Shown here: positions 3-17,287 of the stretch, in pieces
Numbering within the stretch: the stretch's first letter is position 1
How the letters are laid out: each line of letters starts with the position of its first letter
Position numbers and translations under genes: made by a program
NCBI GenBank assembly: GCA_001920395.1
Contig: MNJS01000033.1
Location: 1-32,549, forward strand
DNA from: Thaumarchaeota archaeon 13_1_20CM_2_39_20
GTDB taxonomy: Archaea > Thermoproteota > Nitrososphaeria > Nitrososphaerales > Nitrosopumilaceae
Direction: 5' to 3'
DNA: 32,549 nt
Notes under the pieces: generated by a model
What the model was told of the DNA's origin: nothing
The model's database searches: none
The model's input: the letters and a program-made list of their open reading frames with translations, nothing else

Positions 3-434
3 AAACTTCAGAAAGGTCTTTCAAAACTGGTACTAACTATTGTTGAATTGCTGCGTCAGATCCTGGAAAGACAGGCATTAAGAAGAGTTGAATCCGGAAC
101 TCTTTCTGTAGAAGAAGTTGAGCGATTGGGGCTTGCCTTTATTCAAATTAAGCAGAAAATCACAGAAATTTCAAAAGAATTTGGGCTCAATGACGGAGAG
201 CTTGATGTTAGCATTACCTCTTTGTTAAAGTCAGAAAGAGGTGACTTGAACAATGTATCGCTAGTGGATGTATTTGACCGACTATTAGATAAAGGAACAG
301 TGTTAGCAGGTCACATAACAGTCTCCGTCGCAGATATCGACCTAATTGTGCTCAACCTCTTGGCCACATTATCTGCCGTACCTACTAGAAAGAAATCTAA
401 CTCTAAAGATAGGGATCACATTAACCATGGTTGA
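3..434 (+). CDS. gvpK: Gas vesicle protein GvpK fused to a GvpJ/GvpS-type domain (5' truncated by window edge)
   Basis: The reading frame is open from base 3 and has no convincing start, so the gene begins before the window. The first part is a clear GvpK: a 'KLVLTIVELLRQILERQALR' core followed by RVESGTLS and EEVERLGLAF. The last ~45 residues carry a second gas-vesicle signature, VDVFDRLLDKGTVLAGHIT then VSVADIDLI, typical of the GvpA-like minor proteins GvpJ/GvpS/GvpM (LLDKGVV...ISVADVDL). GvpK and these minor proteins are normally separate polypeptides needed for nucleation and shape of the gas vesicle. The gene ends with an ATGGTTGA overlap with the next gene (8 bases), so translation is probably coupled. 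The fusion itself is read directly; the functional meaning is inference. Confidence 0.9.
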   Translation, partial: KLQKGLSKLVLTIVELLRQILERQALRRVESGTLSVEEVERLGLAFIQIKQKITEISKEFGLNDGELDVSITSLLKSERGDLNNVSLVDVFDRLLDKGTVLAGHITVSVADIDLIVLNLLATLSAVPTRKKSNSKDRDHINHG

Positions 435-1149
435 TGGAAGGTATGTCTACTGCATTCTAGAAGGAAAGGCAAAGGAAGAGTTTGGAAACATAGGCCTATT
501 CGATAGTAATGTTTACACAATCTCTCACAATGATATTAGCGCGGTAGTAAGTAAGATACCATTGAAGGAAATGCAGCCAAACGTTGACAACATAGTTGCG
601 CATCAAAGAGTCGTAGAGGCTTCAAGAAAAATTGGCACTTCCCTGCCAATACGGTTTGGAATCATAGTGATGACAGACTACGGAGTAAAGAAACTATTGG
701 TAAAGTCGCACAAGGACTTCACGGTAAAGATATCCAAATTAAGGCATAAAGACGAATTTGGCATCAAGATAATTATTGATAACGATAAAGGCCGCAGCAA
801 ACTATCAAATAATTCTGAGATAAGAAAGCTAAAGAGTGGTATTTCCAATACAAGCCAAGGGACAGCCTACTTTCTAAAAATGAAGATGGATGAAGCCATC
901 AAGATCGAAAAGCTAAAACAGATTGATAAAATGTCTGGAGAAATTCATCGTCATCTTACGAAATTGTCTGATGACAGCTGTTTGCTGAAGACGGATCTCA
1001 GCCAGGTAATCTTGAATGCAGCTTATCTGGTAAGCAAAGAGGATCGTGAAGAATTCAATGCAGCCATTAGCAAATTGAAATCAAAATATAAAGACGGGGG
1101 ACTCGTGATTCATGAGAGCGGTCCTTGGGCACCCTACTCGTTCTGTTGA
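427..1149 (+). CDS. gvpF: Gas vesicle protein GvpF/GvpL family
   Basis: This is a 240-residue protein starting at the ATG inside the gvpK stop overlap; it begins MVDGRYVYCILEG, the usual N-terminal beta strand of GvpF/L. Other family features are 'VVSKIPLKEMQPN', 'AHQRVVEA', 'LPIRFGIIV' and the diagnostic C-terminus SGPWAPYSF. The length is typical for GvpF/L (about 200-280 residues). In other organisms GvpF/L binds GvpA and is an essential minor assembly or chaperone-like component. It is the second gene of a tight + strand gvp operon, and the following gvpG-like frame begins within or directly after its 3' end. Whether it should be called F or L cannot be decided from sequence alone because only one copy is visible here. 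Confidence 0.92.
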   Translation: MVDGRYVYCILEGKAKEEFGNIGLFDSNVYTISHNDISAVVSKIPLKEMQPNVDNIVAHQRVVEASRKIGTSLPIRFGIIVMTDYGVKKLLVKSHKDFTVKISKLRHKDEFGIKIIIDNDKGRSKLSNNSEIRKLKSGISNTSQGTAYFLKMKMDEAIKIEKLKQIDKMSGEIHRHLTKLSDDSCLLKTDLSQVILNAAYLVSKEDREEFNAAISKLKSKYKDGGLVIHESGPWAPYSFC

Positions 1150-1399
1150 GGTGATTGGAATTCTTATTACCTTTTTCATACTGAAATTGACATTCGACTC
1201 TTTGTTAAACGAGTGTAATCGTCTTGCAGACCAGGGATTTTCAGAAGAACAGATACGAATTCTCAAATCAAGATTGGTCAAGTTAAACCTGGATTATGAA
1301 AATGGTATAATTGATGAAGAAAGCTACAGAAAGAATGAGTTAGAGATGATGCGAGATCTAAACAATGCTTTACAGCAGAAAAAAGGAGGCAACATTTGA
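1112..1399 (+). CDS. gvpG: GvpG-like gas vesicle protein
   Basis: This is a short protein with a hydrophobic N-terminal stretch (IGILITFFILKLTFDSLL) followed by charged helices. The segment LDYENGIIDEESYRKNELEM resembles the GvpG pattern (L...YE.G.I.EEEY...E..L). The ATG at 1112 lies within the end of the preceding GvpF/L frame; an in-frame GTG at 1151 directly after that gene's stop would give a protein that starts VIGILI and fits GvpG proteins better. The start is therefore uncertain. It sits in the position expected for GvpG, next to GvpF/L, and its TGA stop overlaps the start of the kinase gene (TTGA). The assignment rests on the weak family pattern plus context. Confidence 0.7.
   Translation: MRAVLGHPTRSVEVIGILITFFILKLTFDSLLNECNRLADQGFSEEQIRILKSRLVKLNLDYENGIIDEESYRKNELEMMRDLNNALQQKKGGNI
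1382..1389 (+). promoter_or_regulatory. Strong ribosome binding site deciding a TTG start
   Basis: AAAGGAGG lies 6 bases before the TTG at 1396. It supports TTG as the real start of the histidine kinase and shows that this gene is translated as part of the gvp operon, because the site is inside the end of the gvpG-like gene. Confidence 0.75.
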
Positions 1400-2481
1400 A
1401 TCAAACAAAACTAGGAAACAGAATAATTCAACATGAAAACATGGTTTCAAGAATTCAAGATCAAATCAGGATGCAAGTAGAGAGTGTAAAAAAGAGAGCG
1501 TTTGACGGTCGTGAAGAAATGCTTCAAAAAAGAGGTGAGAAAATTGCGCAAGTAAGGGAAAACCTAAAAGAAACAACCGCTATGATCCAAACCAAACATG
1601 ATCTAATTAGGACACGTCTGAACCAAGAAGCGGTTCATAGAGAGGCAAACATCAGGGTCAACAGAGGTCTTGAAGCACTTGAAAGATTCATTCAAATTCT
1701 TCGAGAAACAAACTTGGAAGAAGAAATGATCAGAAAAGCTATTCAAGATCCCATCATAGCTGGTTCTGGAGAATCCGAAGCAAGGAAAATCATAACATCA
1801 GATTTTTTCAAATCAATTCAAAGACAACTTATAATCCAAACTGAATTTATTAACATAGCAGCACATGAATTACGTACTCCCATTATGCCGATCTTGGTAA
1901 ACGCGGAGCTTTTAGAATCGGAGTTGGGCAATAGCAATGAGGAGATTAAAATAATAACACGTAACGCAAAACGGCTTCAACAGCTAACCGAAAACATACT
2001 AAGTGTTACACGAATCGAGAGTAGAACACTCAAGCTAAACAAAGAAAAATTTGACATAAACTCGGCACTCTCAATTGCTATAAGAGATTCAAGAAGTCAG
2101 ATAGAAAGCAAGAATGTAGAATTGATACATGGACCTGGCAGTAATGATCTTTATGTAGAAGCAGACAGAGACAGAATAACACAGGTCATTTCCAACCTCT
2201 TGCATAATGCAATAAAGTTCACTAAAGAAGGGAAAATTTTGGTTTCCTCAGAGAGAGAGAACAGCCACGTATTAGTCAGTATCAAGGATAATGGTACCGG
2301 AATTGACTCCCAGATAATCCCAATTCTCTTTTCAAAATTTGCCACAAAGTCAGACAGGGGAACTGGACTTGGACTATATATCTGTAAGAATATCATAGAA
2401 GCACATGGGGGAGAGATATGGGCAGAGAACAATGATGGTAAGAATGGCGCCACATTCTCCTTTAGCCTACCAGCAATTTAG
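1396..2481 (+). CDS. Soluble histidine kinase, last gene of the gas-vesicle operon
   Basis: This is a 361-residue cytoplasmic sensor kinase. The start is TTG at 1396, overlapping the TGA of the gvpG-like gene (TTGA) and preceded by an excellent Shine-Dalgarno (AAAGGAGG, 1382-1389). Residues ~1-130 are a long charged, probably coiled-coil region with no membrane segment and no PAS/GAF domain that I recognise. Then come a HisKA domain with the H-box FINIAAHELRTP (His157), an N-box NLLHNAIKF (~267-275), the G1 box DNGTGID (Asp298), an F-box FSKF and the G2 box GTGLGLYI, so it looks catalytically complete. No response regulator is in the window. Its coupling to gas-vesicle genes suggests that it senses or controls something connected to vesicle formation; this is inference. 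Confidence 0.93.
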   Translation: MNQTKLGNRIIQHENMVSRIQDQIRMQVESVKKRAFDGREEMLQKRGEKIAQVRENLKETTAMIQTKHDLIRTRLNQEAVHREANIRVNRGLEALERFIQILRETNLEEEMIRKAIQDPIIAGSGESEARKIITSDFFKSIQRQLIIQTEFINIAAHELRTPIMPILVNAELLESELGNSNEEIKIITRNAKRLQQLTENILSVTRIESRTLKLNKEKFDINSALSIAIRDSRSQIESKNVELIHGPGSNDLYVEADRDRITQVISNLLHNAIKFTKEGKILVSSERENSHVLVSIKDNGTGIDSQIIPILFSKFATKSDRGTGLGLYICKNIIEAHGGEIWAENNDGKNGATFSFSLPAI

Positions 2482-2699: not shown

Positions 2700-3071
2700 C
2701 TACAATGGAGGTATTGAAAAAAACTCATCCATCCGTTTGAATATTTCAACATACTTTCTTCCTAATTCTGTTGTCTTGTAAATTGCTCGTCTTGAGGCAG
2801 TAGATTTTTGATGTGTCGCAAGCAATCTACGGGTCAAAAGAAAATGTAGGTAATTTTCTACTTGTCTTGAATTCAAATTACACTTGTTCATAATGTGAGT
2901 CTTCATGGATCCATTCCACGACTCTGTAAGTATGTTATTAATAATTTCAAACCATCCTCTATTGCCCCATCTCCTGTAGTTACCGTCAACTGATTCAACC
3001 GAGCTAGACTTTCCTTGCCAAGCAATACCATCAGAGAACTCAGTTTTATCATCATTCAATTGGACATGCAC
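2700..3071 (-). CDS. Winged-helix DNA-binding regulator (ArnR1-like / HTH_45 type)
   Basis: This is a 123-residue protein with a GTG start (3071). Residues ~38-115 form a winged helix of the kind very common in thaumarchaea: WFEIINNILTE, then KTHIMNKCNLNSRQVENYL, HFLLTRRLL and YKTTELGRKYVEIFKRMDEF. The first ~35 residues have no recognisable domain, so the true start could lie further in, but no in-frame ATG is available. It converges with the gas-vesicle operon. The target is unknown; proteins of this family are usually small single-domain transcription factors. Confidence 0.75.
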   Translation of the reverse strand: MHVQLNDDKTEFSDGIAWQGKSSSVESVDGNYRRWGNRGWFEIINNILTESWNGSMKTHIMNKCNLNSRQVENYLHFLLTRRLLATHQKSTASRRAIYKTTELGRKYVEIFKRMDEFFSIPPL

Positions 3072-3657: not shown

Positions 3658-6600
3658 TTAACTGTAGTTTAGTACAGCTACGCTTCCTGTCAGAGTAACG
3701 TAATAGAGTTTTCCATTCCATACCGACATGTCTATTGGAGCCAAAGTAAGACCTGACATGACTGTTTGTACCTGTGCCTTTGGAACTCCTGTAGCTGGGT
3801 CTACCTGCGGCGGATTGGCATTAGTTGGAAGAACAGCTACTATATAGCCGATTGCAAAATCTCCAAAAAAGTAAGCACCTTGAAGTTGTGATGGGTACTG
3901 GGTCCCAGTAGAGTGATAGAATGCCCCACCAGTAATTGCTTCAAGACCATTAGCGAATCCGCTGGTTGGCTCTAGTCCAGCATGCGGATACCAGTATATT
4001 GGCTCTTTATAGTTTGCAAGATTTTCCGGATTTCCAATTGTCGGTCCTTCATATTGCTCCCATCCAAAATTGGATGGAGTGGTGGAATCGAAAATGGATT
4101 CCCAAGTATTATATCCCACCATATTGACGTATATCTTACCTGTCTGGGAATCTATATCAAAAGTCCAAGGATTTCTTAGGCCATAACTGTAGATCTCTTT
4201 TTTCACTGTTGGGTCAGTGCTTGTAACAAATGGGTTTGTACTTGGAATGGAATAAAGAAGGCCATTAGAACCTGGGGTTGCAAGTGGAGTTATCCTTAAC
4301 ATCTTTCCATCTAACGATGTCAGGTCCTGTGCTGGAGTACCAGGTGGTATGATAAATTGATCCCCTGTGGCGACATAGAGATTTCCCTGAGAATCAAACT
4401 TCATATGCCCTGCATTGTGAGCAAGAGCGCCTGGGATTCCAAGTATGAGCTCCTTACCCTTTGTAGTATCTGCTATTATATTTCCAGAAGAGTCAGTTGT
4501 AGCAGTGTACCTGACAACCTGGTCCTGTAATACTCCATTGATACTTTCTGTAGCATAAAAGTAAACCTGGTGTGTAGTTAACCAATTTGGATCTATTGCT
4601 ATTCCCAAAAGTCCTTCGTCGTCTCCTGCAAAACCTTGTACGGTTGGTACAGTTACAAATGGTACTGACTGTTTTACAAAAGTTCCGCCCATGTTCTTTA
4701 CTATTATTACTGTTCCATTCTTTAGAATAACCATAAACGCACCAGAGCCATCTAACCCTGGCCCATTGTCTGGAATGAAGGCTATTCCGTCTGTCTGCGA
4801 ACCAAGTCCTGTTACTATGTTTTGAGTACTAAACACTGGGGTACTAGTACTAGTGACAGTAAATGAAGTAGAATATGTGTTACCGCTGGCATCTGATATT
4901 TGTATCTGATGTGCTCCAACTGTAGCACTAGTGGGTATCGTAAACGATCCTGGAGCCTCACCTTCAGAACTGGTAGTTAGAGGAGATGGAGTAGTTGCAA
5001 CAGGTGTACCATCAAATGTTATGGTAATAGCTGAATTGGCTGCAAAGCCGCTAGCGTGGAAGTTTACTGTTGTACCAGTATGTCCTGTTGATGGATTGAA
5101 CAGTAAGGAAGCTGGTTTGACTGTAAGGCTCTTGGCATCACTATTACTCTGGTCTGTAGCTTTAACATTATGAGCTCCTGCAGTTGAATAGGGTACTTGG
5201 ATATCTGCGGTAAAGCCTCCTGTGGAGTCAGTTGATATGGTTGCTGGATTAGCGGATGCGTCGCCTGATACAGTGTTTTCAAGGAGAATGGTATCAAAGT
5301 ATATACTGACTTGTGAGTATGGTGAGTAGTGAGTACCTGTAACCTTTACTGCATCACCAGTGTTTCCTGAAGTTTGATAAAGTGTGATAGCTGCGCTAGG
5401 ACCAACGACGAATGAATCCCAGTATGTATGACCTTTACCATCCGATACTTGAACCTGATGTGCTCCACCAGTAGATGCTGGTATTGTAAATGTTGCTCCC
5501 GTAAAGTTTCCTGTCGAGTCAGTTGTTATCGTGGTTGGATTTGTAGCAACGGCCGTACCGTCATATGATATTGTGACTGCTGAATTGGGCGAGAAAGTAT
5601 TACCTGAAACTGTAGCAGTCGTACCTGCAGGTCCTGTTGAGGGACTCAATGATATAGCTGTTGTTCTATAAACTGCAGCTACCTGTGTGTTCGCGTTTAT
5701 CGATACAAATCTTGGGTTATCTCTGAGGCCTGTATCCTGCCAGTGATCAAAGATATATGGTGGATAGCTTCCAGCTCCAAGTGAGTATAGTTCGTTATTA
5801 TTCAAAGTAAGGGTTACTGGAGAGAAGCCTGATGCTACAACCGTTCCACCCTGAGATGCTGAGATAAAGTAACCTGTTATGACATTGCCAACTCTGTCTT
5901 GTGTGTTTACAGTCAATGTAGATGTGGTTGTTACAGTAAATTGTGTTGAAGCTGATTTTGTTGATGCGTCTGCAGCACTAACAGTGTGAGATCCTGTAGT
6001 AGATGATGGCACTGTAAAAGTTCCCGTAAAGCTTCCAGCCGAGTCAGTCGTTATGACTGCCGGAGTGGTGTTAACAAGTGAAGTATCATATTTTATAGTT
6101 ATGGCACTATTGGGTGAGAAATTATTGCCTGTAACTTTTACTACTGTGCCCGAAGGTCCACTCGACGGATTCAGCAATATATACGGTCCTGCAGTTACAG
6201 TAAATTGCGCTGTAGATGAAGCGGCTGCCGCGTCTGTCGCATTAACAGTATGAGATCCCATACTTGACGGGGAGGGTACAGTAAATGATCCTGTAAAGTT
6301 TCCACCCGAGTTTGTTGTTAATACAGACGGGGTCGTATTAACTGTAGCACCGTCATATCTTATCGTAATGGTAGAGCTAGAGTGAAAAGAGGTACCTGTA
6401 ACTGTTACTGCTGTACCTACGGTTCCTGATGATGGATTCAGCGAAATTGCTGCGATTCTGTAAACTGCAGTTATGTATGTATCTGTGGTAATTGATATGG
6501 GTCTTGGGTTTGTGGTGGTACCAGTATCTGACCAGTGATCAAACGTATAATTACCAAAGTCTGAGACCGCAAGTGAATATTGTGCACCGTTATTTACAGT

Positions 6601-8238
6601 AAAGTTGACTGGAGAGAAGCCTGATGCTACAACCGTTCCACCCTGAGATAGTGAGACGTAGAAACCTGTTATTGTATTGCCATTTTTGTCCTGTGTTTTC
6701 ACACCCAATGTAGATGTTGTTGAAGTTGTTACGGTAAATTGTGCCGAAGCTGAATTTGATGCAGCATCTTTTGCATTAACGGTGTGAGATCCCGCAGCTG
6801 ATGTCGGTACTGTAAATGCAGCTGAAAATCCTCCTGATGAGCTCGTTGTTATGGTTCCAGGAGTCGTAGCAACAGCGGTACCGTCATATGATATTGTGAT
6901 ACCAGAGTTGGCTGTAAAGTTACTACCAATAACTGTGACAGTTGTGCCAGCGTTTCCGCTTGTTGGACTGAGGGATATAGATGCTTGTGTGGTAGCAGGA
7001 CTCGTTGTTGCAGAAGCTGAACTAGAAGGCGCACTTGTTCCTATTGCGTTTATAGCTGATACTCGGTATGTATAGGTGGCACTTGGCAAGAGTCCGGTAT
7101 TCGAATAGTGGTTAATGTATAATACACTGCCTGTATTTGCTACTATAGTATTCCATGTAGTGCCACCATCGGTTGATCTCTCGATTTTATATCCAGTGAT
7201 TGCAGAACCACCAGTGTTTACTGGTGTCCACCAGGAGAGATTGATTTGCGATGGTGAGACTGTAGTAGCAGATAGGTATCTTGGCGGGTCTGGTACAGTT
7301 GCTGGGCTGGTAGTCGCAGAAGCTGTACTAGAAGGCAGACTTGTTCCTATTGCGTTTATAGCTGATACTCTGTATGTATAGGTCGTATTTGCTGAAAGAA
7401 AGGAATTAGAATACCATGAATTGACGGTACTAGCTACAATGGTACCCCATGTAGTTCCGCCATCAGTTGATCTCTCGATTTTGTAGCCTGTTATTGCAGA
7501 ACCGCCATTGTTTGTCGGTGCGGTCCAGATGAGATTAATTTGTGACGGTGAAACGGCTGTTGCAGAGAGGTTTGTTGGAGCAGATGGGATAGTGGCTGTT
7601 ACGTTAAACTGTGCTGAAGCCGAGTTAGCTGATGCATCTGTGGCACTAACATTATGAAGCCCTGCAGCTGATGTTGATAGTATTGTAATTGATGCGGTAA
7701 AACCTCCAGTCGAGGTGGTTGTTATTGTAGCTGGTGTAGTAGATAGATTTGTACCATCTAATTTTACAATGATACCAGAGTTTGCTACAAAGTTACTGCC
7801 TGTAACTTGAACAGATGTACCTGTAGGTCCACTTGTTGGATTTAGTGATACCGATGGGGTTGTTACGGTAAACTGTGCTGAAGCCGAGTTTGATGCAGCA
7901 TCTTTTGCACTAACAGTGTGAGATCCTGCAGTTGATGCTGGGACTGTAAATGTTGCTGAAAATCCCCCACTCAAGTCAGTTGTTATGGTTGCAGGAGTCG
8001 TAGCAACAGCGGTACCATCATACGATATAGTAACAACAGAGCCAGGCAAGAACAGTGAACCTGTAATGGTAACGGTGGTGCCTGCAGGTCCGCTTGTTGG
8101 ATCAAGTGATATTGTTGAAAGTAGTTGTAATGATGAAGCCTGTGGAATCATGTTATTACTTTCTGATACAGCTGGAATAGAAAGAATAACGATTAGGAGA
8201 ACTAAAAGAGATTCAAATACATGTTTCGATTTATTCAT
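3658..8238 (-). CDS. Giant secreted modular protein with C-terminal PQQ-type glucose/sorbosone (aldose sugar) dehydrogenase domain
   Basis: This is a 1,526-residue exoprotein. The signal peptide is MNKSKHVFESLLVLLIVILS with cleavage near AVSES. Next come two TIG/IPT-like repeats (SLDPTSGPAG..., ~85 residues each), two fibronectin III domains (~216-410; SAPTNLSA... SAINAIGTS), a third TIG repeat, an 'FDHW' domain (TQDKNGNTITGFY...FDHWSDTG), two TIG repeats, a second 'FDHWQDTG' domain, and three more TIG repeats. Residues ~1130-1526 are a soluble quinoprotein sugar dehydrogenase (GSDH family): DEGLLGIAIDPNW, HNAGHMKFDSQGNLYVATGD, DGKMLRI, YSYGLRNPW and ITGGAFYH. The HNxG histidine and the GLRNP arginine of the PQQ site are present, so the domain looks active. 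Family knowledge says it oxidises aldose sugars with PQQ; the substrate and electron acceptor here are unknown. It is a sister of the gene at 12.5-17.3 kb. A TATA-like AAGATAAAAT lies at 8301-8310. Confidence 0.9.
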   Translation of the reverse strand: MNKSKHVFESLLVLLIVILSIPAVSESNNMIPQASSLQLLSTISLDPTSGPAGTTVTITGSLFLPGSVVTISYDGTAVATTPATITTDLSGGFSATFTVPASTAGSHTVSAKDAASNSASAQFTVTTPSVSLNPTSGPTGTSVQVTGSNFVANSGIIVKLDGTNLSTTPATITTTSTGGFTASITILSTSAAGLHNVSATDASANSASAQFNVTATIPSAPTNLSATAVSPSQINLIWTAPTNNGGSAITGYKIERSTDGGTTWGTIVASTVNSWYSNSFLSANTTYTYRVSAINAIGTSLPSSTASATTSPATVPDPPRYLSATTVSPSQINLSWWTPVNTGGSAITGYKIERSTDGGTTWNTIVANTGSVLYINHYSNTGLLPSATYTYRVSAINAIGTSAPSSSASATTSPATTQASISLSPTSGNAGTTVTVIGSNFTANSGITISYDGTAVATTPGTITTSSSGGFSAAFTVPTSAAGSHTVNAKDAASNSASAQFTVTTSTTSTLGVKTQDKNGNTITGFYVSLSQGGTVVASGFSPVNFTVNNGAQYSLAVSDFGNYTFDHWSDTGTTTNPRPISITTDTYITAVYRIAAISLNPSSGTVGTAVTVTGTSFHSSSTITIRYDGATVNTTPSVLTTNSGGNFTGSFTVPSPSSMGSHTVNATDAAAASSTAQFTVTAGPYILLNPSSGPSGTVVKVTGNNFSPNSAITIKYDTSLVNTTPAVITTDSAGSFTGTFTVPSSTTGSHTVSAADASTKSASTQFTVTTTSTLTVNTQDRVGNVITGYFISASQGGTVVASGFSPVTLTLNNNELYSLGAGSYPPYIFDHWQDTGLRDNPRFVSINANTQVAAVYRTTAISLSPSTGPAGTTATVSGNTFSPNSAVTISYDGTAVATNPTTITTDSTGNFTGATFTIPASTGGAHQVQVSDGKGHTYWDSFVVGPSAAITLYQTSGNTGDAVKVTGTHYSPYSQVSIYFDTILLENTVSGDASANPATISTDSTGGFTADIQVPYSTAGAHNVKATDQSNSDAKSLTVKPASLLFNPSTGHTGTTVNFHASGFAANSAITITFDGTPVATTPSPLTTSSEGEAPGSFTIPTSATVGAHQIQISDASGNTYSTSFTVTSTSTPVFSTQNIVTGLGSQTDGIAFIPDNGPGLDGSGAFMVILKNGTVIIVKNMGGTFVKQSVPFVTVPTVQGFAGDDEGLLGIAIDPNWLTTHQVYFYATESINGVLQDQVVRYTATTDSSGNIIADTTKGKELILGIPGALAHNAGHMKFDSQGNLYVATGDQFIIPPGTPAQDLTSLDGKMLRITPLATPGSNGLLYSIPSTNPFVTSTDPTVKKEIYSYGLRNPWTFDIDSQTGKIYVNMVGYNTWESIFDSTTPSNFGWEQYEGPTIGNPENLANYKEPIYWYPHAGLEPTSGFANGLEAITGGAFYHSTGTQYPSQLQGAYFFGDFAIGYIVAVLPTNANPPQVDPATGVPKAQVQTVMSGLTLAPIDMSVWNGKLYYVTLTGSVAVLNYS

Positions 8239-10066: not shown

Positions 10067-11668
10067 CTAGATAGGCAGAGTAAATGAAAAAGTGGCACCT
10101 TTGCCGTTTGAATTGTTTCTAGCCCATATCTTACCACCATGGGCTTCGATTATGTTCTTTGAAATATACAATCCCAATCCTGTTCCTGACTTTTGTCTTC
10201 TGACAAATTTTGAAAACAATTTGGACATAATCTCTGGCTCTATACCTGAACCAGAATCTTTAACATTGACTTGGATCAAATTATCTGATTTCTTTTCTTC
10301 TGCTGTTATAGTTATACTTCCCTCACTTGTAAATCGAAGTGCATTGTCTATCAGGTTGGAAATAACCTGAATCAGTCTCTCCTTGTCGGCATTAATGTAA
10401 AGGGATCCTGACTTGTTAAACAATATCTTGACATTTTTTAAAAGTTCATGATTTCTAAATTGGTACTGAAAATCTTTTATGACAGTCAATACAGAGTCAT
10501 TGAGATCAAATCCTTCCTTTTCAAGCTTTAACAGCTTATTTTGGATCTTTGTTAAATTCAGCAGGTTGTTTGCTAGTCTGTGTAGCCTCTTGCTATTTCT
10601 CAATATTGCCTCCTCATATTCTGTACTTTCGTTGCCATCTTGCAACAATTCTGAATACGTAAGAATTGTCTGAATTGGAGTCTTCAACTCATGGCTTGCA
10701 ATATTGATAAATTCGGACTGTTCTTCATCCCTTCGTTTTAGTTTCTCGTTTAATTCATTGAGATTCCATAGCGACTCAAAAAATGATTTGAACGAATAAA
10801 GACTTGCTTTGTTGTTTGAATATATTGTAAAGCCGATTGTATCTAAGAGCTGATTTGCCTTCGAGTCCTTTATTTCAAAGACAGCAAACTTGGAGTCATC
10901 TACAAGTATCATGCCGGCGTGGGCATTGTCACCTTTTAGAAACCTCACACTTGAAGACGATAACATGTGTTCTATTAGGCTCGAGTTTTCATCATCAATT
11001 GGGCAGATTATTCTAATTTCTGAACTCTTCTTACTGGCCAATTTTATCAGCTCTTCAACTAATCCTAATCTGTGTAGATGAGCCAACGCTCGACTGGTTG
11101 GCATAAGCAACAAGGCTTCCTTGTTTGCTCTTCTAACTATATCTATGATTACCTCTATGCCATTCTTTTGATCGTATATTACATCAAGAAATTCTGGTTC
11201 TAGTCCACCCTCTACTTCCTTTATCTTTCGTTCAGCAGGAATTGATTTGTTCCATAATGTATCAAAAATATATCGTTGTTCTTCGACTAGCTGCTCTACG
11301 CTGCTGTATATTACTTGTGTCATGGGAACTGATTCTTTAGTCATAACAGATGACACATATTCTTTTTCGCTTACAGAAAATCCACCCTTGATTCCATCAA
11401 GATGCCTAAGCTCCGGAATTATCTTTAGGAGCCTCTTGCAAAGATCAACGTTATCTCTTGTAATTTCAGTAATACACTTGATTCTGGTACCCCTGCTTTT
11501 TAAAAACATTAGCGCCTTTTTGTAGTCGGGGATCTCATATAGCGAAGGACCAGCAGAGTCCAGATAGATATTCATCTCTTGCTCTGTGTTATTGACACAT
11601 TTTGTCCATATCTTCAGGACATTTTCATTGCCGTGAAATACCTCTGTCCGTTCTGAATTGATTAACAA
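10067..11668 (-). CDS. Soluble histidine kinase with N-terminal sensor region, divergent to gvpH
   Basis: This is a 533-residue kinase with a TTG start at 11668. Residues 1-~310 are an alpha/beta sensor region, apparently two related halves (ERTEVFHGNENVLKIWTKC... and YDQKNGIEVIIDIVRRANKE...), reminiscent of the phospholipase-D-like effector domain of TrmB regulators and seen in thaumarchaeal kinases; that comparison is tentative. The kinase core is complete: H-box FINIASHELKTP (His326), N-box NLIDNALRF, G1 DSGSGIE, F-box FSKF and G2 GTGLGLYI. No membrane segment is seen, so it should be cytoplasmic. It shares a 152-base divergent promoter region with the gvpH-like gene. The core is close to the kinase at 1.4-2.5 kb (both end IIEAHGG.IWA.NN). 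Confidence 0.92.
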   Translation of the reverse strand: MLINSERTEVFHGNENVLKIWTKCVNNTEQEMNIYLDSAGPSLYEIPDYKKALMFLKSRGTRIKCITEITRDNVDLCKRLLKIIPELRHLDGIKGGFSVSEKEYVSSVMTKESVPMTQVIYSSVEQLVEEQRYIFDTLWNKSIPAERKIKEVEGGLEPEFLDVIYDQKNGIEVIIDIVRRANKEALLLMPTSRALAHLHRLGLVEELIKLASKKSSEIRIICPIDDENSSLIEHMLSSSSVRFLKGDNAHAGMILVDDSKFAVFEIKDSKANQLLDTIGFTIYSNNKASLYSFKSFFESLWNLNELNEKLKRRDEEQSEFINIASHELKTPIQTILTYSELLQDGNESTEYEEAILRNSKRLHRLANNLLNLTKIQNKLLKLEKEGFDLNDSVLTVIKDFQYQFRNHELLKNVKILFNKSGSLYINADKERLIQVISNLIDNALRFTSEGSITITAEEKKSDNLIQVNVKDSGSGIEPEIMSKLFSKFVRRQKSGTGLGLYISKNIIEAHGGKIWARNNSNGKGATFSFTLPI

Positions 11669-11820: not shown

Positions 11821-12261
11821 ATGAAACTAGATGAGCTGCAAAAGGAGCTTGGCCTGTTTGTGAATTTAATTCTAAATGATTCCGGTAAAGCTTCTCGACG
11901 ATATTTTACTGTAGGAGGAGGGATACTAGGTGTAAAGTTGTCAATTAACACGAGTCCACTTGTACATGACCTTCAAGAAGGTCACAATCTGCCCAGATAT
12001 CAAATACAACAGGAAGATGAACCATTGGTTGACGTAATCGGAGATAAGAACACTCTGAAGGTCATGGCGCTTCTTCCTGGTGTAAAAAAAGAAGATGTTT
12101 CGTATGATGTCGTGGATGGAATGATAAAACTTAAAATAACAAAAGGAGGTAAAGCCTTCTACAAAGAAATACCTTGTGACGTAAATCCAAGCAAGATCTC
12201 TGTCCTGTCTACAACAATTAACAACTCTGTTCTTGAAATAATCTTCAAGAAAAAAATCTAA
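11821..12261 (+). CDS. gvpH: Hsp20-like gas vesicle protein GvpH
   Basis: This is a 146-residue protein. Residues ~60-146 are an alpha-crystallin/CS-type beta sandwich: PLVDVIGDKNTLKVMALLPG, VKKEDVSYDVVDGMIKLKIT, YKEIPCDV and a terminal NNSVLEIIFKK. The order 'EPLVDVI...LPGV...NNSVLEI' is that of archaeal GvpH, the small-heat-shock-like gas-vesicle accessory protein. The N-terminal 60 residues (including VGGGILGVKLSIN) fit the Gly-rich linker of that family. A general Hsp20 chaperone is the main alternative, but the presence of a gvp operon 9 kb away favours GvpH. It is expressed from its own leaderless promoter, divergent from a histidine kinase. Confidence 0.75.
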   Translation: MKLDELQKELGLFVNLILNDSGKASRRYFTVGGGILGVKLSINTSPLVHDLQEGHNLPRYQIQQEDEPLVDVIGDKNTLKVMALLPGVKKEDVSYDVVDGMIKLKITKGGKAFYKEIPCDVNPSKISVLSTTINNSVLEIIFKKKI

Positions 12262-12520: not shown

Positions 12521-15500
12521 CTAAGGACATACGGATGTTAGGGCATTGGGTGAAGGAAGACTGCCACTATACGTGCTTCCACAATGTTCGTAGACGGTAC
12601 TGGTATTGTCGACAGTACCGGAGTTGGAGATGATACCGCTGGAATTGTTGTTTATCTTGCCTCCGCTGTAGTTCTTGATAGTACCGCCGCTGTTGTTGGT
12701 AACTGTACCAGAGTTAGAAATTGTACCATAGGAGTTGATGGTACCAGAGTTGGAGATTGTACCACCGGAGAGGTTGGTAATAGTACCGCCGTTGCCAATG
12801 TAGCCCGAGTTGGAGATGGAGCCAGAGTTGGTTATGGTACCGATGTTCTTGAGGTAGCCGGAGTTGGAGATGGAAGCACCTGAATTGATTGTAAGTGTCT
12901 GACCTGAATTTATTGTAAGGGTGACACCAGCTGGTACGATGACTGGAAAGCTTGCGGTATAGTTTGATACCAATATTGTATTTGGAATTGTTACAGGATC
13001 TGTGATTGTTCCAGTGTTTGTAATTGAGGTCAGAGCAGATTTGATTGTACCTGTGCCTGAAATGGTACCTAAATTTGAGATGGTGCCGGAGTTGGAGATG
13101 GTACCAGAGTTGGAGATGGAAATACCTGAATTGATTGTAAGCGTTTGACCTGAAGGTATTGTGAAGGTGACGCCGGATGGTACAATCAGTGGAAAGCTTG
13201 GTGTATAGCTTGATGACAATATTGTATTTGGAATTGTTACAGGATCTGTGATTGTTCCAGTGTTTGTAATTGAATTCCTGTTAAAAAAAGGAGTGGAAAT
13301 TATTCTGCCTGTGCCTGAGATGTTACCGGAGTTGATGATTTTGGCATCGCTGTTGTTATTGTATACGTTGTTAATGATAGTACTAGTGTTGTTAATCGTA
13401 CCGGAGTTGAAGATGGTACCGTAGGAGTTGATGGTACCAGAGTTAGAAATTGTACTGCCCGAGTTGTTGGTGATAGTACCGCCATTCCCAAGATAGCCGG
13501 AGTTGTTGAGTGTACCAGAGTTGGAGATGGTACCGTAGGAGTTGATGGTACCAGAGTTAGAAATTGTACTGCCCGAGTTGTTGGAGATGGTACCGCCATT
13601 CCAGAGATAGCCGGAGTTGTTTAGTGTACCAGAGTTAGAGATCGTACCAGAATTGGTGATGTAGCCGGAGTTGGAAAAGGAAATACCTGAATTGATTGTA
13701 AGTATCTGACCTGAATTTATTGTAAGGATGACACCAAATGGTACGACCATCGGAAAGCTTGGTGTATAGCTTGATGACAATGTTGTATTTGGAATTGTTA
13801 CAGGATCTGTGATTGTTCCAGTGTTTGTAATTGAGGTCAGAGCAGATTTGATTGTGCCTGTGCCTGAGATGGTACCTAAATTTGAGATGGTGCCGGAGTT
13901 GGTGATGGTACCAGAGTTGTTGGTAATGGTACCTCCAGAGTTGTTGGTAATGGTACCTCCAGAGATGTTGTTGATCTTTCCGCCATTATAGTTTGTAATG
14001 GTACCGCTGCTATTGTTGGTAATGGTACCAGAGTTGGAGATGATGCCATAGGAACTGATAGTACCAGAGTTTGTGATAGTTCCACCAGAGTTATTGGTAA
14101 TGGTACCACCGTTTCCGACATAGCCTGAGTTATTGATTGTGCCAGAGTTGGAGATGGTACCAGTGCTACTTATGATACCAGAGTTAGTGATGGAGACACC
14201 CGAGTTGATTGTAAGCGTTACACCTGAATTTATTGTAAGGGTGACGCCGGATTGCACGATAACATTCGCAGGTGCTGTAGTACTAGTAGCAAGGGTACAA
14301 CTTGCTCCAATTATCCAGTTTCCAGTAGTCGGTGGAAGCTGACATGGATTGCTGATGACAGGACTAATCACAGTCTGTGCTATTCCAGCACTGGTATTTG
14401 GCGGATAGTTTATGTCACCAAGATATGACGCAACGATGTTGTGTGATCCTACGGATAGCAAGGATGTGGAATATGTTGCAGTACCAGCAGATAGTGTACC
14501 TCTGCCAAGGATTGTTGGCTGTGTGGTATCAGTGTAATTGAATTGTACTATCCCAGTTGCTGTGCTTGGTGATACCGTAGCAGTAAGTGTAACCGACTGG
14601 CCAACTGTTGATGGGTTTGCACTCGAGGCAAGAGCCGTGCTTGAGCTGCGCACAAGCGTAAGAGGATAATGATCAGGAATGTATGGGCCTGGAAGGACCA
14701 AAGGGGCTCTTGGTGATTGTGAAAAGTCAAAGGCTTCCGTCAGATCGTTGGCTACTGCATCCCTTTGCGTAAGAGAGGATAAAGAGAACAGTGCTTCAAT
14801 GAACTTTGGGATGGATGAGTGCTCACTTTGCGTGTGATCTATGAATCCTTCTTTTGCGTATGGTGATAATATCAAAAGCGGAACTCGGAAGCCATCACCA
14901 AATTTACCTACCTGAGGTGGAGGAACGTGGTCATACCAATTTCCCCAATCATCCCATGTTATGAAAATCGCAGTAGAGTTCCAATAGTCACTTTGCATAA
15001 TTGCATTTACTAAAGATACAACCCTGTGTTCTCCATTCGCGGGATCTTCCGGTGGATGCTCGCTTGGTGTTGGAAGCATCATAACAACATCTGGAAGATT
15101 CTTGTTCGCAACGTCTGAGAAAAACTGGCTCAATGGTGCGATATTATTATTTATGGACGATTCGTTAAATTCTGTAAGGCGTGCCAACTGGTTTCCCTCG
15201 TCAGGGTAATACTTCCAAGAGATATGCTTTGAGTTAAGCTCATCCCATATCGTAGTAATCTTCTGCAGCGGGTACCCTGGTAGTGGGTTACTCGTGATAT
15301 TACCTGATTGCGCGGCCATAAGGTAGAGATGGTTTGGTGTGCTATCGCTCATTACGGAGCTAAAGTAATTATCAAAAAGAACGAATTTAGAGGCATAGCC
15401 CCAATAGTATGGGATATTAGTAGAATCATAATAGCCCATCGAGTAGTTTGAATTTGCCCAAACAAAGCCATCCATTTTCCCATTGTCATATGCTATACGT

Positions 15501-17287
15501 GCACATGCAAGATAGTGACCACAGACCCAAGATGGAGGACCCAAGAGATGGAATGATTTGACCAATATAGTCGAGTTTTGAGCAACCGGTACAGCTGTGT
15601 TGTTGTTTATTCCGTTGGCACCAGGATAAGTACCAAAATAGTTATCAAATGTGTGGTTTTCCTGAACTATCACAACAACATGTTTGATATTCTTAGCCAG
15701 AGATGTCTGGCTGGCTGCTGCTGCACTGATCTCGTTTGATTTAGGGGATTCGCCGACAGAGTTTACAGCTGATACCTTGTAGAAATATGTAACACCTTTT
15801 GTAAGCCCTGTATCGGCGTAGGAACTAACATTTCCTACTGTTGCAAGAAGTGTCTCAGCACCAGAATTGGTGGATCTGTATATCTTGTAGTTTGTGATTG
15901 GAACGCCTCCGTCGTTTAGTGGAGCATACCAGGACAAGCTAATTTGCGATGAGGAGACGAATGATGTTGCAAGTCCTGTTGGTTGATCTGGAACCGTTGC
16001 TGGGATGGTGGTCGCAGAAGCAGTACTAGATGGAAAACTTGTTCCTATACCATTGATTGCTGATACTCTGTATGTATAGGTGGTACTTGGCAAGAGTCCG
16101 GTATTGGAATAGTGGTTGATGTATGATGCACTGCCAGTATTTGCTACGATAGTACTCCAGGTAGTTCCGCCATCAGTTGATCTCTCGATTTGGTATCCAG
16201 TTATTGCAGAGCCACCAGTGTTCACTGGTGTCCACCAGGAGAGATTGATTTGCGATCGTGAGACTGTAGTAGCGTTGAGGTATCTTGGCTGGTCTGGCAC
16301 AGTTGCAGGACTAGTTGTTGCAGAAGCTGTACTAGAAGGCAAACTTGTTCCTATTGCGTTTATAGCTGATACTCTGTATGTATAGGCAGTACTTGCTGAG
16401 AGAAAGTAGTTAGAATAGTGGTTGATGTATGATGCACTGCCAGTATTTGCTACGATAATATTCCATGTAGTTCCACCATCCGTTGATCTCTCGATTTTGT
16501 AGCCAGTGATTGCAGAACCACCGGTGTTTACTGGTGTCCACCAGGAGAGATTGATTTGCGATGGTGGGACTGTAGTAGCATTGAGATATCTTGGCTGGTC
16601 TGGCACAGTTGCAGGGCTAGTTGTTGCAGAAGCTGAACTAGAAGGCAAACCTGTTCCTATTGCGTTTATAGCTGATACTCTGTATGTATAGGTGGTACTT
16701 GCTGAGAGAAAGTAGTTAGAGTACGATGCTGTTGTACTTGCGGTATTTGCCACAACAGTATTCCATGTAGTTCCACCATCAGTTGATCTCTCAATCTTGT
16801 AGCCAGTGATTGCAGAACTACCATTATTTATTGGTGCAGTCCACCTGAAATTAATTTGTGAAGGTGAAACAGCTGTTGCAGAGAGGTTTGTTGGAGCAGA
16901 TGGCATGGTGGCTGTTACGGTAAACTGTGCTGAAGCCGAATTTGACGCAGCATCTTTTGCACTAACAGTGTGAGATCCTGCAATTGATGCAGGTACCGTC
17001 AATGTAGCTGAAAATCCTCCACTCAAGTCAGTTGTTATGGTTCCAGGAGTTGTGGTAACAGCAGTACCGTCATATGATATAGTAACAACAGAGTCAGGCA
17101 AGAAAAGTGAACCGGTAACTGTAACAGTGGTGCCTACCTGTCCGCTTGTTGGATTCAGTGATATTGTTGATAGTGGTAATGACGAAGCCTGTGGAATTAT
17201 GCTATTACTTTCTGACACAGCTGGGATAGAGAGAATAACAATTAGGAGAACTACGAGAGATTCAAATGGACGTTTGAATTTATTGAT
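12521..17287 (-). CDS. Giant secreted modular protein with phosphoesterase (phospholipase C/acid phosphatase) domain and Asn/Ser/Gly beta-solenoid; ATC in place of ATG
   Basis: Counting from GTG 17218 the protein has 1,565 residues: one TIG-like repeat, four fibronectin III domains (~105-490), a phosphoesterase domain of the PF04185 type (~505-855; HVVVIVQENHTFDNYFGTYP, SDSTPNHLYLMA, ITWDDWGNWYDHVPPP, EHSSIPKFIEALF), an Ig-like domain (~870-960; SSANPSTVGQSVTLTATVSP) and ~590 residues of NSGTISNSGT-type repeats ending in a Cys-containing tail. GTG 17218 would leave no signal peptide, yet the 23 codons before it encode NKFKRPFESLVVLLIVILSI, nearly identical to the signal peptide of the 3.7-8.2 kb sister. 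At the ATG position the codon is ATC (17285-17287), with GGGGG 8 bases before it. I therefore annotate from ATC, but the gene may be start-impaired. The phosphoesterase family cleaves phospho-esters such as phospholipids; the solenoid probably mediates surface attachment. Confidence 0.85.
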   Translation of the reverse strand: MNKFKRPFESLVVLLIVILSIPAVSESNSIIPQASSLPLSTISLNPTSGQVGTTVTVTGSLFLPDSVVTISYDGTAVTTTPGTITTDLSGGFSATLTVPASIAGSHTVSAKDAASNSASAQFTVTATMPSAPTNLSATAVSPSQINFRWTAPINNGSSAITGYKIERSTDGGTTWNTVVANTASTTASYSNYFLSASTTYTYRVSAINAIGTGLPSSSASATTSPATVPDQPRYLNATTVPPSQINLSWWTPVNTGGSAITGYKIERSTDGGTTWNIIVANTGSASYINHYSNYFLSASTAYTYRVSAINAIGTSLPSSTASATTSPATVPDQPRYLNATTVSRSQINLSWWTPVNTGGSAITGYQIERSTDGGTTWSTIVANTGSASYINHYSNTGLLPSTTYTYRVSAINGIGTSFPSSTASATTIPATVPDQPTGLATSFVSSSQISLSWYAPLNDGGVPITNYKIYRSTNSGAETLLATVGNVSSYADTGLTKGVTYFYKVSAVNSVGESPKSNEISAAAASQTSLAKNIKHVVVIVQENHTFDNYFGTYPGANGINNNTAVPVAQNSTILVKSFHLLGPPSWVCGHYLACARIAYDNGKMDGFVWANSNYSMGYYDSTNIPYYWGYASKFVLFDNYFSSVMSDSTPNHLYLMAAQSGNITSNPLPGYPLQKITTIWDELNSKHISWKYYPDEGNQLARLTEFNESSINNNIAPLSQFFSDVANKNLPDVVMMLPTPSEHPPEDPANGEHRVVSLVNAIMQSDYWNSTAIFITWDDWGNWYDHVPPPQVGKFGDGFRVPLLILSPYAKEGFIDHTQSEHSSIPKFIEALFSLSSLTQRDAVANDLTEAFDFSQSPRAPLVLPGPYIPDHYPLTLVRSSSTALASSANPSTVGQSVTLTATVSPSTATGIVQFNYTDTTQPTILGRGTLSAGTATYSTSLLSVGSHNIVASYLGDINYPPNTSAGIAQTVISPVISNPCQLPPTTGNWIIGASCTLATSTTAPANVIVQSGVTLTINSGVTLTINSGVSITNSGIISSTGTISNSGTINNSGYVGNGGTITNNSGGTITNSGTISSYGIISNSGTITNNSSGTITNYNGGKINNISGGTITNNSGGTITNNSGTITNSGTISNLGTISGTGTIKSALTSITNTGTITDPVTIPNTTLSSSYTPSFPMVVPFGVILTINSGQILTINSGISFSNSGYITNSGTISNSGTLNNSGYLWNGGTISNNSGSTISNSGTINSYGTISNSGTLNNSGYLGNGGTITNNSGSTISNSGTINSYGTIFNSGTINNTSTIINNVYNNNSDAKIINSGNISGTGRIISTPFFNRNSITNTGTITDPVTIPNTILSSSYTPSFPLIVPSGVTFTIPSGQTLTINSGISISNSGTISNSGTISNLGTISGTGTIKSALTSITNTGTITDPVTIPNTILVSNYTASFPVIVPAGVTLTINSGQTLTINSGASISNSGYLKNIGTITNSGSISNSGYIGNGGTITNLSGGTISNSGTINSYGTISNSGTVTNNSGGTIKNYSGGKINNNSSGIISNSGTVDNTSTVYEHCGSTYSGSLPSPNALTSVCP
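12560..14290 (-). repeat. Coding tandem repeats: NSGT-type beta-solenoid with four macro-repeats
   Basis: The DNA is filled with variants of GTACCAGAGTTGGAGATG, the reverse strand of Asn-Ser-Gly-Thr-Ile-Ser codons with a period of roughly six residues. On top of this lie larger units: three copies of ITNTGTITDPVTIPNT followed by a segment ending LTINSG, plus a diverged first copy, each introducing a new run. Regular strand-turn repeats of this sort usually build a beta-solenoid. Confidence 0.8.

Follow-up and report, generated by a model that had tools for sequence, protein, structure and literature searches.

A histidine kinase with a gas-vesicle-restricted coiled-coil domain in the gvp loci of Nitrososphaerales: a predicted dedicated signalling module

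Why should a gas-vesicle operon run directly into a gene for a histidine kinase? Among the classical gvp clusters compiled in a review, the regulators are GvpD/GvpE or GvrA-C, and there are no kinases (PMC9501494, PMC4982088). 'Ca. N. gargensis' was at one time the single thaumarchaeote known to carry gas-vesicle genes (PMC3835317), and these genes also appear as a gene category in an ancestral reconstruction of ammonia-oxidising archaea (PMC7554672). In the open-access literature, we found no account of a kinase-bearing gvp arrangement or of gvp regulation in ammonia-oxidising archaea; prior mention in subscription papers is possible. The question arose from a contig of Thaumarchaeota archaeon 13_1_20CM_2_39_20 (MNJS01000033.1), which in its full 32,549 nt is referred to here as the window. 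Its parent assembly comprises 1.06 Mb and is 61% complete. An earlier note, made from the sequence alone, had proposed that a kinase gene in this window, here called HK1, is translationally wired into the gvp operon, and had suggested that the kinase may sense assembly state or control buoyancy.

Start site and operon context of HK1

The window opens within gvpK, and the sequence 5′ of position 1 is absent from the assembly. The truncated gvpK is fused in a single open reading frame to a C-terminal GvpA-type domain (3..434, plus strand, its 5′ end lost at the contig edge; PF05121, E = 4.1e-23; PF00741, E = 2.6e-12); such gvpK-GvpA fusions recur in the gvp clusters of several Nitrososphaerales families. 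Its stop codon and the ATG of the following gvpF/gvpL-type gene (427..1149, plus strand; PF06386, E = 5.6e-56) lie in an 8-nt overlap. The next gene (1151..1399, plus strand) probably starts with the GTG at 1151, its frame being readable from 1112. It matches the GvpG family PF05120 with an E value of 6.4e-4, which is under the cut-off of that family, and the profile of its orthologue family with an E value of 2e-35, this profile containing the window's own sequence. The weak Pfam match, the family profile and the position together make it a likely gvpG.

HK1 (1396..2481, plus strand) encodes a soluble histidine kinase of 361 amino acids with HisKA and HATPase_c domains. Its TTG start codon (1396-1398) overlaps the TGA stop codon of gvpG (1397-1399), so that the two genes share the 4-nt TTGA (1396..1399, plus strand). 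The open frame holds no in-frame start codon 5′ of TTG1396, and this start is well supported because R9 and H13, both invariant across 16 orthologues, precede M16, the next methionine and next possible start. A Shine-Dalgarno-like GGAGG (1385..1389, plus strand) is located inside gvpG, 6 nt 5′ of the start codon. Matches of at least 4 nt to such a signal were present in 11 of the 16 orthologues, compared with 27.5% of control positions within gvpG, and the match of HK1 is among the longest in the set. Both the overlapping TTG start and the near-perfect ribosome site described in the earlier note were thus borne out. In orthologues from the Nitrosotalea genus, the kinase start either shares 4 or 1 nt with the gvpG stop or is no more than 1 nt away from it. 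This tight arrangement is limited to Nitrosotalea and one sister genus; in the remaining lineages an Hsp20/GvpH-like gene separates gvpG from the kinase, or the fusion order is different. From the overlap we infer that translation of gvpG and HK1 is coupled. The 4-nt overlap leaves no space for a terminator between the two genes.

The rest of the window holds further genes of note. A second kinase (10067..11668, minus strand) is divergent from an Hsp20/GvpH-like gene (11821..12261, plus strand), and this pair recurs in other Nitrosotalea, including gvp-free genomes; in one genome (G027) it lies directly 5′ of the gvp operon. The idea that the Hsp20-like gene at 11821-12261 is tied exclusively to gvp was rejected, as orthologues with a neighbouring kinase are present in gvp-negative congeners too. 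Downstream of HK1, a winged-helix protein of the HTH_45/Sso10a-like type is encoded on the minus strand (2700..3071), and relatives of this family are found downstream of gvp in most congeners. Two giant repeat-bearing proteins (3658..8238 and 12521..17218, both on the minus strand) are near-identical in parts, the latter with long runs of NSGTI-type repeats.

Distribution of the kinase and its locus neighbours

GvpA-family genes were present in 16 of 37 Nitrosotalea-genus genomes. A full-length HK1 orthologue was found in all 16 gvp-positive genomes and in none of the 21 gvp-negative ones, these and the other co-occurrence counts being drawn from related genomes that are not phylogenetically independent. 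The orthologues matched at 63-66% identity from about residue 8, and all 16 adjoin or overlap gvpG. The 21 gvp-negative congeners encode more distant kinases only, the core of which aligned while the N-terminal domain remained unmatched. Named matches belonged to Candidatus Nitrosotalea and Thaumarchaeota MAGs; Nitrosotalea devanaterra (LN890280) was among the complete genomes.

The N-terminal gas-vesicle-associated coiled-coil domain of HK1 (1396..1857, plus strand), to which we gave the working name GvHKN, was found in gvp loci only. A search with an alignment of this domain alone yielded 30 strong matches in 400 Nitrososphaerales genomes, all within gvp loci and all fused to a histidine kinase. 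A Nitrososphaerales sample of the same size contained 35 gvp-positive genomes. Five of these had no GvHKN: in two the contigs stop 0.5 kb past gvpG, and three carry another type of gvp cluster that has no zinc-ribbon gene. There were no matches outside Nitrososphaerales in a 398-genome sample of the phylum, and none in plasmids or viral contigs. One weak and short match (E = 6.7e-4), interrupted by a stop codon, occurred in a genome without gvp genes (G189; L159 near 7467); it could be what is left of a lost locus, or a chance match.

The GvHKN pattern covers four families (f1, f8, f9 and f10) and two fusion orders. In f9, f10, Nitrosotalea and the sister genera of Nitrosotalea, the domain is N-terminal, and its gene comes after gvpG or after gvpG paired with an Hsp20-like gene. 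In the Nitrososphaera-type family f8, it forms the C-terminus of a longer kinase that is encoded before gvpA. A tree of the kinase cores placed the N-terminal form in one clade (97/96), apart from the C-terminal form. In four f8 loci examined (L133, L131, L134 and L078), a gene for a MinD/ParA-type ATPase directly follows the permuted kinase, and in most of the four it sits between this kinase and gvpA; the ATPase is a possible gas-vesicle positioning factor. Collectively, these findings mark HK1 as a dedicated component of the gas-vesicle locus, regularly present in Nitrososphaerales gvp clusters. The view that kinases are not standard members of gvp clusters thus stands for the classical clusters (PMC9501494) and fails for Nitrososphaerales.

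The gvp core reads gvpA, zinc ribbon, gvpA/J, gvpK-A, gvpF, gvpG, in some cases an Hsp20-like gene, and HK1. In most congeners with enough flanking sequence, it is preceded by glmS, a gene for a GvpD-like P-loop ATPase, a second soluble kinase (HK2) and a response regulator (RR), and HK1 directly follows gvpG. The order gvpK-gvpF-gvpG-kinase, whose conservation the earlier note had proposed to check, is kept in gvp-bearing relatives, and together with the overlap that excludes an intergenic terminator, it supports the claim that HK1 is wired into the operon. HK2 comprises about 270 amino acids without a sensor domain and is missing, broken or unrecognised in some Nitrosotalea loci. RR is a receiver-only, single-domain protein encoded in most Nitrosotalea loci and retains its phosphorylation residues (DD, D, T and K). 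The GvpD-like ATPase of the Nitrosotalea relatives matches PF07088 with an E value of 1.9e-15 (57.7 bits against a cut-off of 24); the general KaiC family scores slightly above PF07088, and GvpD_bR2 reached only E = 0.035.

In a sample of 23 Nitrosotalea-genus genomes, orthologues of RR, the GvpD-like ATPase and the zinc-ribbon protein were present in 7 of 7 gvp-positive and 0 of 15 gvp-negative congeners, the window's own incomplete assembly being excluded from both counts. That assembly, 61% complete and cut at gvpK, yielded no orthologue of the three. Identity across congeners amounted to 75-94% for RR and 52-82% for the GvpD-like ATPase. RR is not a universal partner, because some HK1 loci, in the sister genus g25 and in several other families, have no adjacent RR gene. 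In one f8 genome (G110), an RR is encoded beside the permuted GvHKN kinase, and in two further loci (G092 and G197) another kinase with an RR lies across gvp on the opposite side, that of G092 carrying a Cache sensor domain.

Two other neighbours deserve mention. The zinc-ribbon protein (83 amino acids with several CxxC pairs; L074:6834-7082 in N. devanaterra) is encoded between two gvpA-type genes, has no confident Pfam match and tracks both gvp presence and the GvHKN kinase; it is a candidate new Gvp protein. A Spherulin4-family gene (L074:5643-6437, minus strand, and similar) lies between RR and gvpA on the opposite strand in many Nitrosotalea loci, and larger related proteins are encoded after HK1.

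Kinase core and coiled-coil domain of HK1

The catalytic part of HK1 is intact. HisKA (PF00512, E = 5.7e-13) covers residues 148-209 and HATPase_c (PF02518, E = 1.7e-29) residues 257-360. The phospho-acceptor H157, together with E158 and T161, is invariant in the 16 orthologues; the histidine lies in an HExxT/N motif, here HELRT, which is of the kinase plus phosphatase type. The N, G1 and G2 boxes of HATPase_c are present (N267, N271, D298, G300, G302, G322, G324 and G326). Transmembrane segments were found in neither HK1 nor HK2, and HK1 has no PAS, HAMP or Cache domain. As judged from these motifs, the evidence makes HK1 a functional-looking kinase/phosphatase.

The region in front of this core, residues 1 to about 150, has no credible family in Pfam or NCBIfam, and a PDB sequence search with HK1 matched kinase cores only. 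In an AlphaFold2 model built from 31 diverse sequences, residues 2-104 of GvHKN form a single helix with pLDDT mostly 90 or above, followed by three short helices; residues 105-154 are of low confidence, as are residues of about 80-154 in the model of full-length HK1. Hydrophobicity along the domain varies most strongly with a period of 3.5 residues, the spacing of a heptad coiled coil, and the helix of about 100 residues has a predicted length of about 15 nm. The long coiled-coil front without a known sensor domain, as the earlier note had it, was thus recovered. A fold search of solved structures with GvHKN gave no matches, and the long helix makes such a search uninformative. Coiled coils N-terminal to HisKA are common signalling helices, and the shape of GvHKN is therefore silent on its ligand.

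Between close species, dN/dS ranged from 0.02 to 0.17 for the N-terminal domain and from 0.07 to 0.21 for the kinase core to which it is joined, the domain having the lower value in 6 of 7 species pairs. In one comparison of another Nitrosotalea-type kinase, conservation was lower in the N-terminal region (45%) than in the core (53%). The stronger constraint on GvHKN fits contact with a conserved partner. An origin of the domain from GvpC was rejected: seven sequences aligned to the published consensus of the 33-residue repeat scored no higher than shuffled or heptad-preserving shuffled controls, and hhalign gave a probability of 0.05%. GvHKN contains no 33-residue repeats, and no GvpC family was among the Pfam/NCBIfam matches listed.

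Proposed role and relation to known systems

Given the gene neighbourhood and the known chemistry of its components, we propose two-component control of gas-vesicle production, with HK1 as a dedicated cytosolic sensor kinase acting via RR and the GvpD-like ATPase; we put the probability of this reading at roughly 0.6. The long helix of GvHKN would dimerise and receive the signal, which in the simplest case would be contact with a conserved Gvp protein or with the vesicle as it assembles. The two kinases HK1 and HK2 would together set the phosphorylation of RR. RR, which lacks a DNA-binding domain, would turn gas-vesicle production up or down by way of another protein, for which the GvpD-like ATPase is the best candidate. 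Sharing one mRNA with the final gvp genes would hold HK1 in proportion to the vesicle proteins. That HK1 senses the vesicle or its assembly is our hypothesis because the coiled coil is exclusively gvp-distributed and strongly constrained. A further step would make the gas vesicle itself the object of sensing: with its coiled coil of about 15 nm, HK1 would sit on vesicles or on their assembly complex and signal how far they have grown, how many there are or whether pressure has collapsed them, as part of a loop for feedback or mechanosensing. This reading is speculative, and we consider it unlikely.

Other explanations have to be weighed against this reading. HK1 might be an ordinary soluble sensor of the environment (redox, ammonia or osmotic state) whose target is gvp expression and whose N-terminal domain responds to a small molecule or to conditions in the cytosol and makes no contact with Gvp proteins. 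The domain is modelled as a plain long helix, and the regulators of gvp clusters elsewhere, GvpD/GvpE and GvrA-C, act on transcription (PMC9501494, PMC4982088). However, a small-molecule sensor that stands on its own would not have to be confined to gvp loci, as GvHKN is; moreover, the model offers no ligand pocket, residues 105-154 being of low confidence, and constraint is stronger on the domain than on the catalytic core. We regard this alternative as tentative and rather improbable.

A far less probable reading gives HK1 a primary role in vesicle assembly or structure, with the coiled coil as a Gvp accessory and the GHKL ATPase core replacing a missing GvpN AAA-ATPase. GvHKN is indeed distributed like a core Gvp protein, and neither gvpN nor gvpC is among the coding genes seen between gvpA and HK1; but the invariance of His157, Glu158, Thr161 and all ATP-lid motifs is expected of phosphosignalling, and RR is present in many HK1 loci. 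Although these archaea encode many HisKA kinases, one of which could have come to lie downstream of gvpG by chance, such hitch-hiking is hardly credible: it is contradicted by the perfect co-occurrence in 37 congeners, the conservation over four families and two fusion orders and the strong purifying selection on HK1.

Under the two-component reading, these flotation organelles of ammonia-oxidising archaea from soil and freshwater probably come with signalling of their own. HK1 with its gvp-only domain, HK2, a receiver and a GvpD-like ATPase constitute a defined gene set bearing on how cells measure or control an intracellular gas organelle, and cultivated organisms such as N. devanaterra carry the system. 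If docking holds true, GvHKN could also serve as a coiled-coil tag for gas-vesicle biology.

HK1 shares HisKA, HATPase_c, every catalytic motif and HELRT with the soluble HisKA-type histidine kinases, and differs from them in its input domain, a gvp-restricted coiled coil without a database family. GvHKN resembles the outer-surface protein GvpC in its long, helical and charged sequence, but shows no sequence relation to it. Nitrosotalea loci resemble the haloarchaeal GvpD/GvpE system in that their upstream part encodes a GvpD-type P-loop ATPase; they differ from it in having kinases and a receiver protein, and reading of the loci turned up no gvpE-like gene. In Serratia ATCC 39006, GvrA, GvrB and GvrC are encoded within the gvp locus and are needed for full gvpA1 expression (PMC4982088). 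Regulators thus lie inside the gvp locus in both cases, but GvrA is an NtrC-type activator and no kinase is mentioned in that report; reading of ORFs and Pfam matches revealed no gene for such an activator in the gvp region of the window, where the kinase core itself, joined to a gvp-specific domain, is part of the operon. The HK1 system would thus represent a variant form of gas-vesicle control found in Nitrososphaerales, its function predicted and its gvp-specific domain new.
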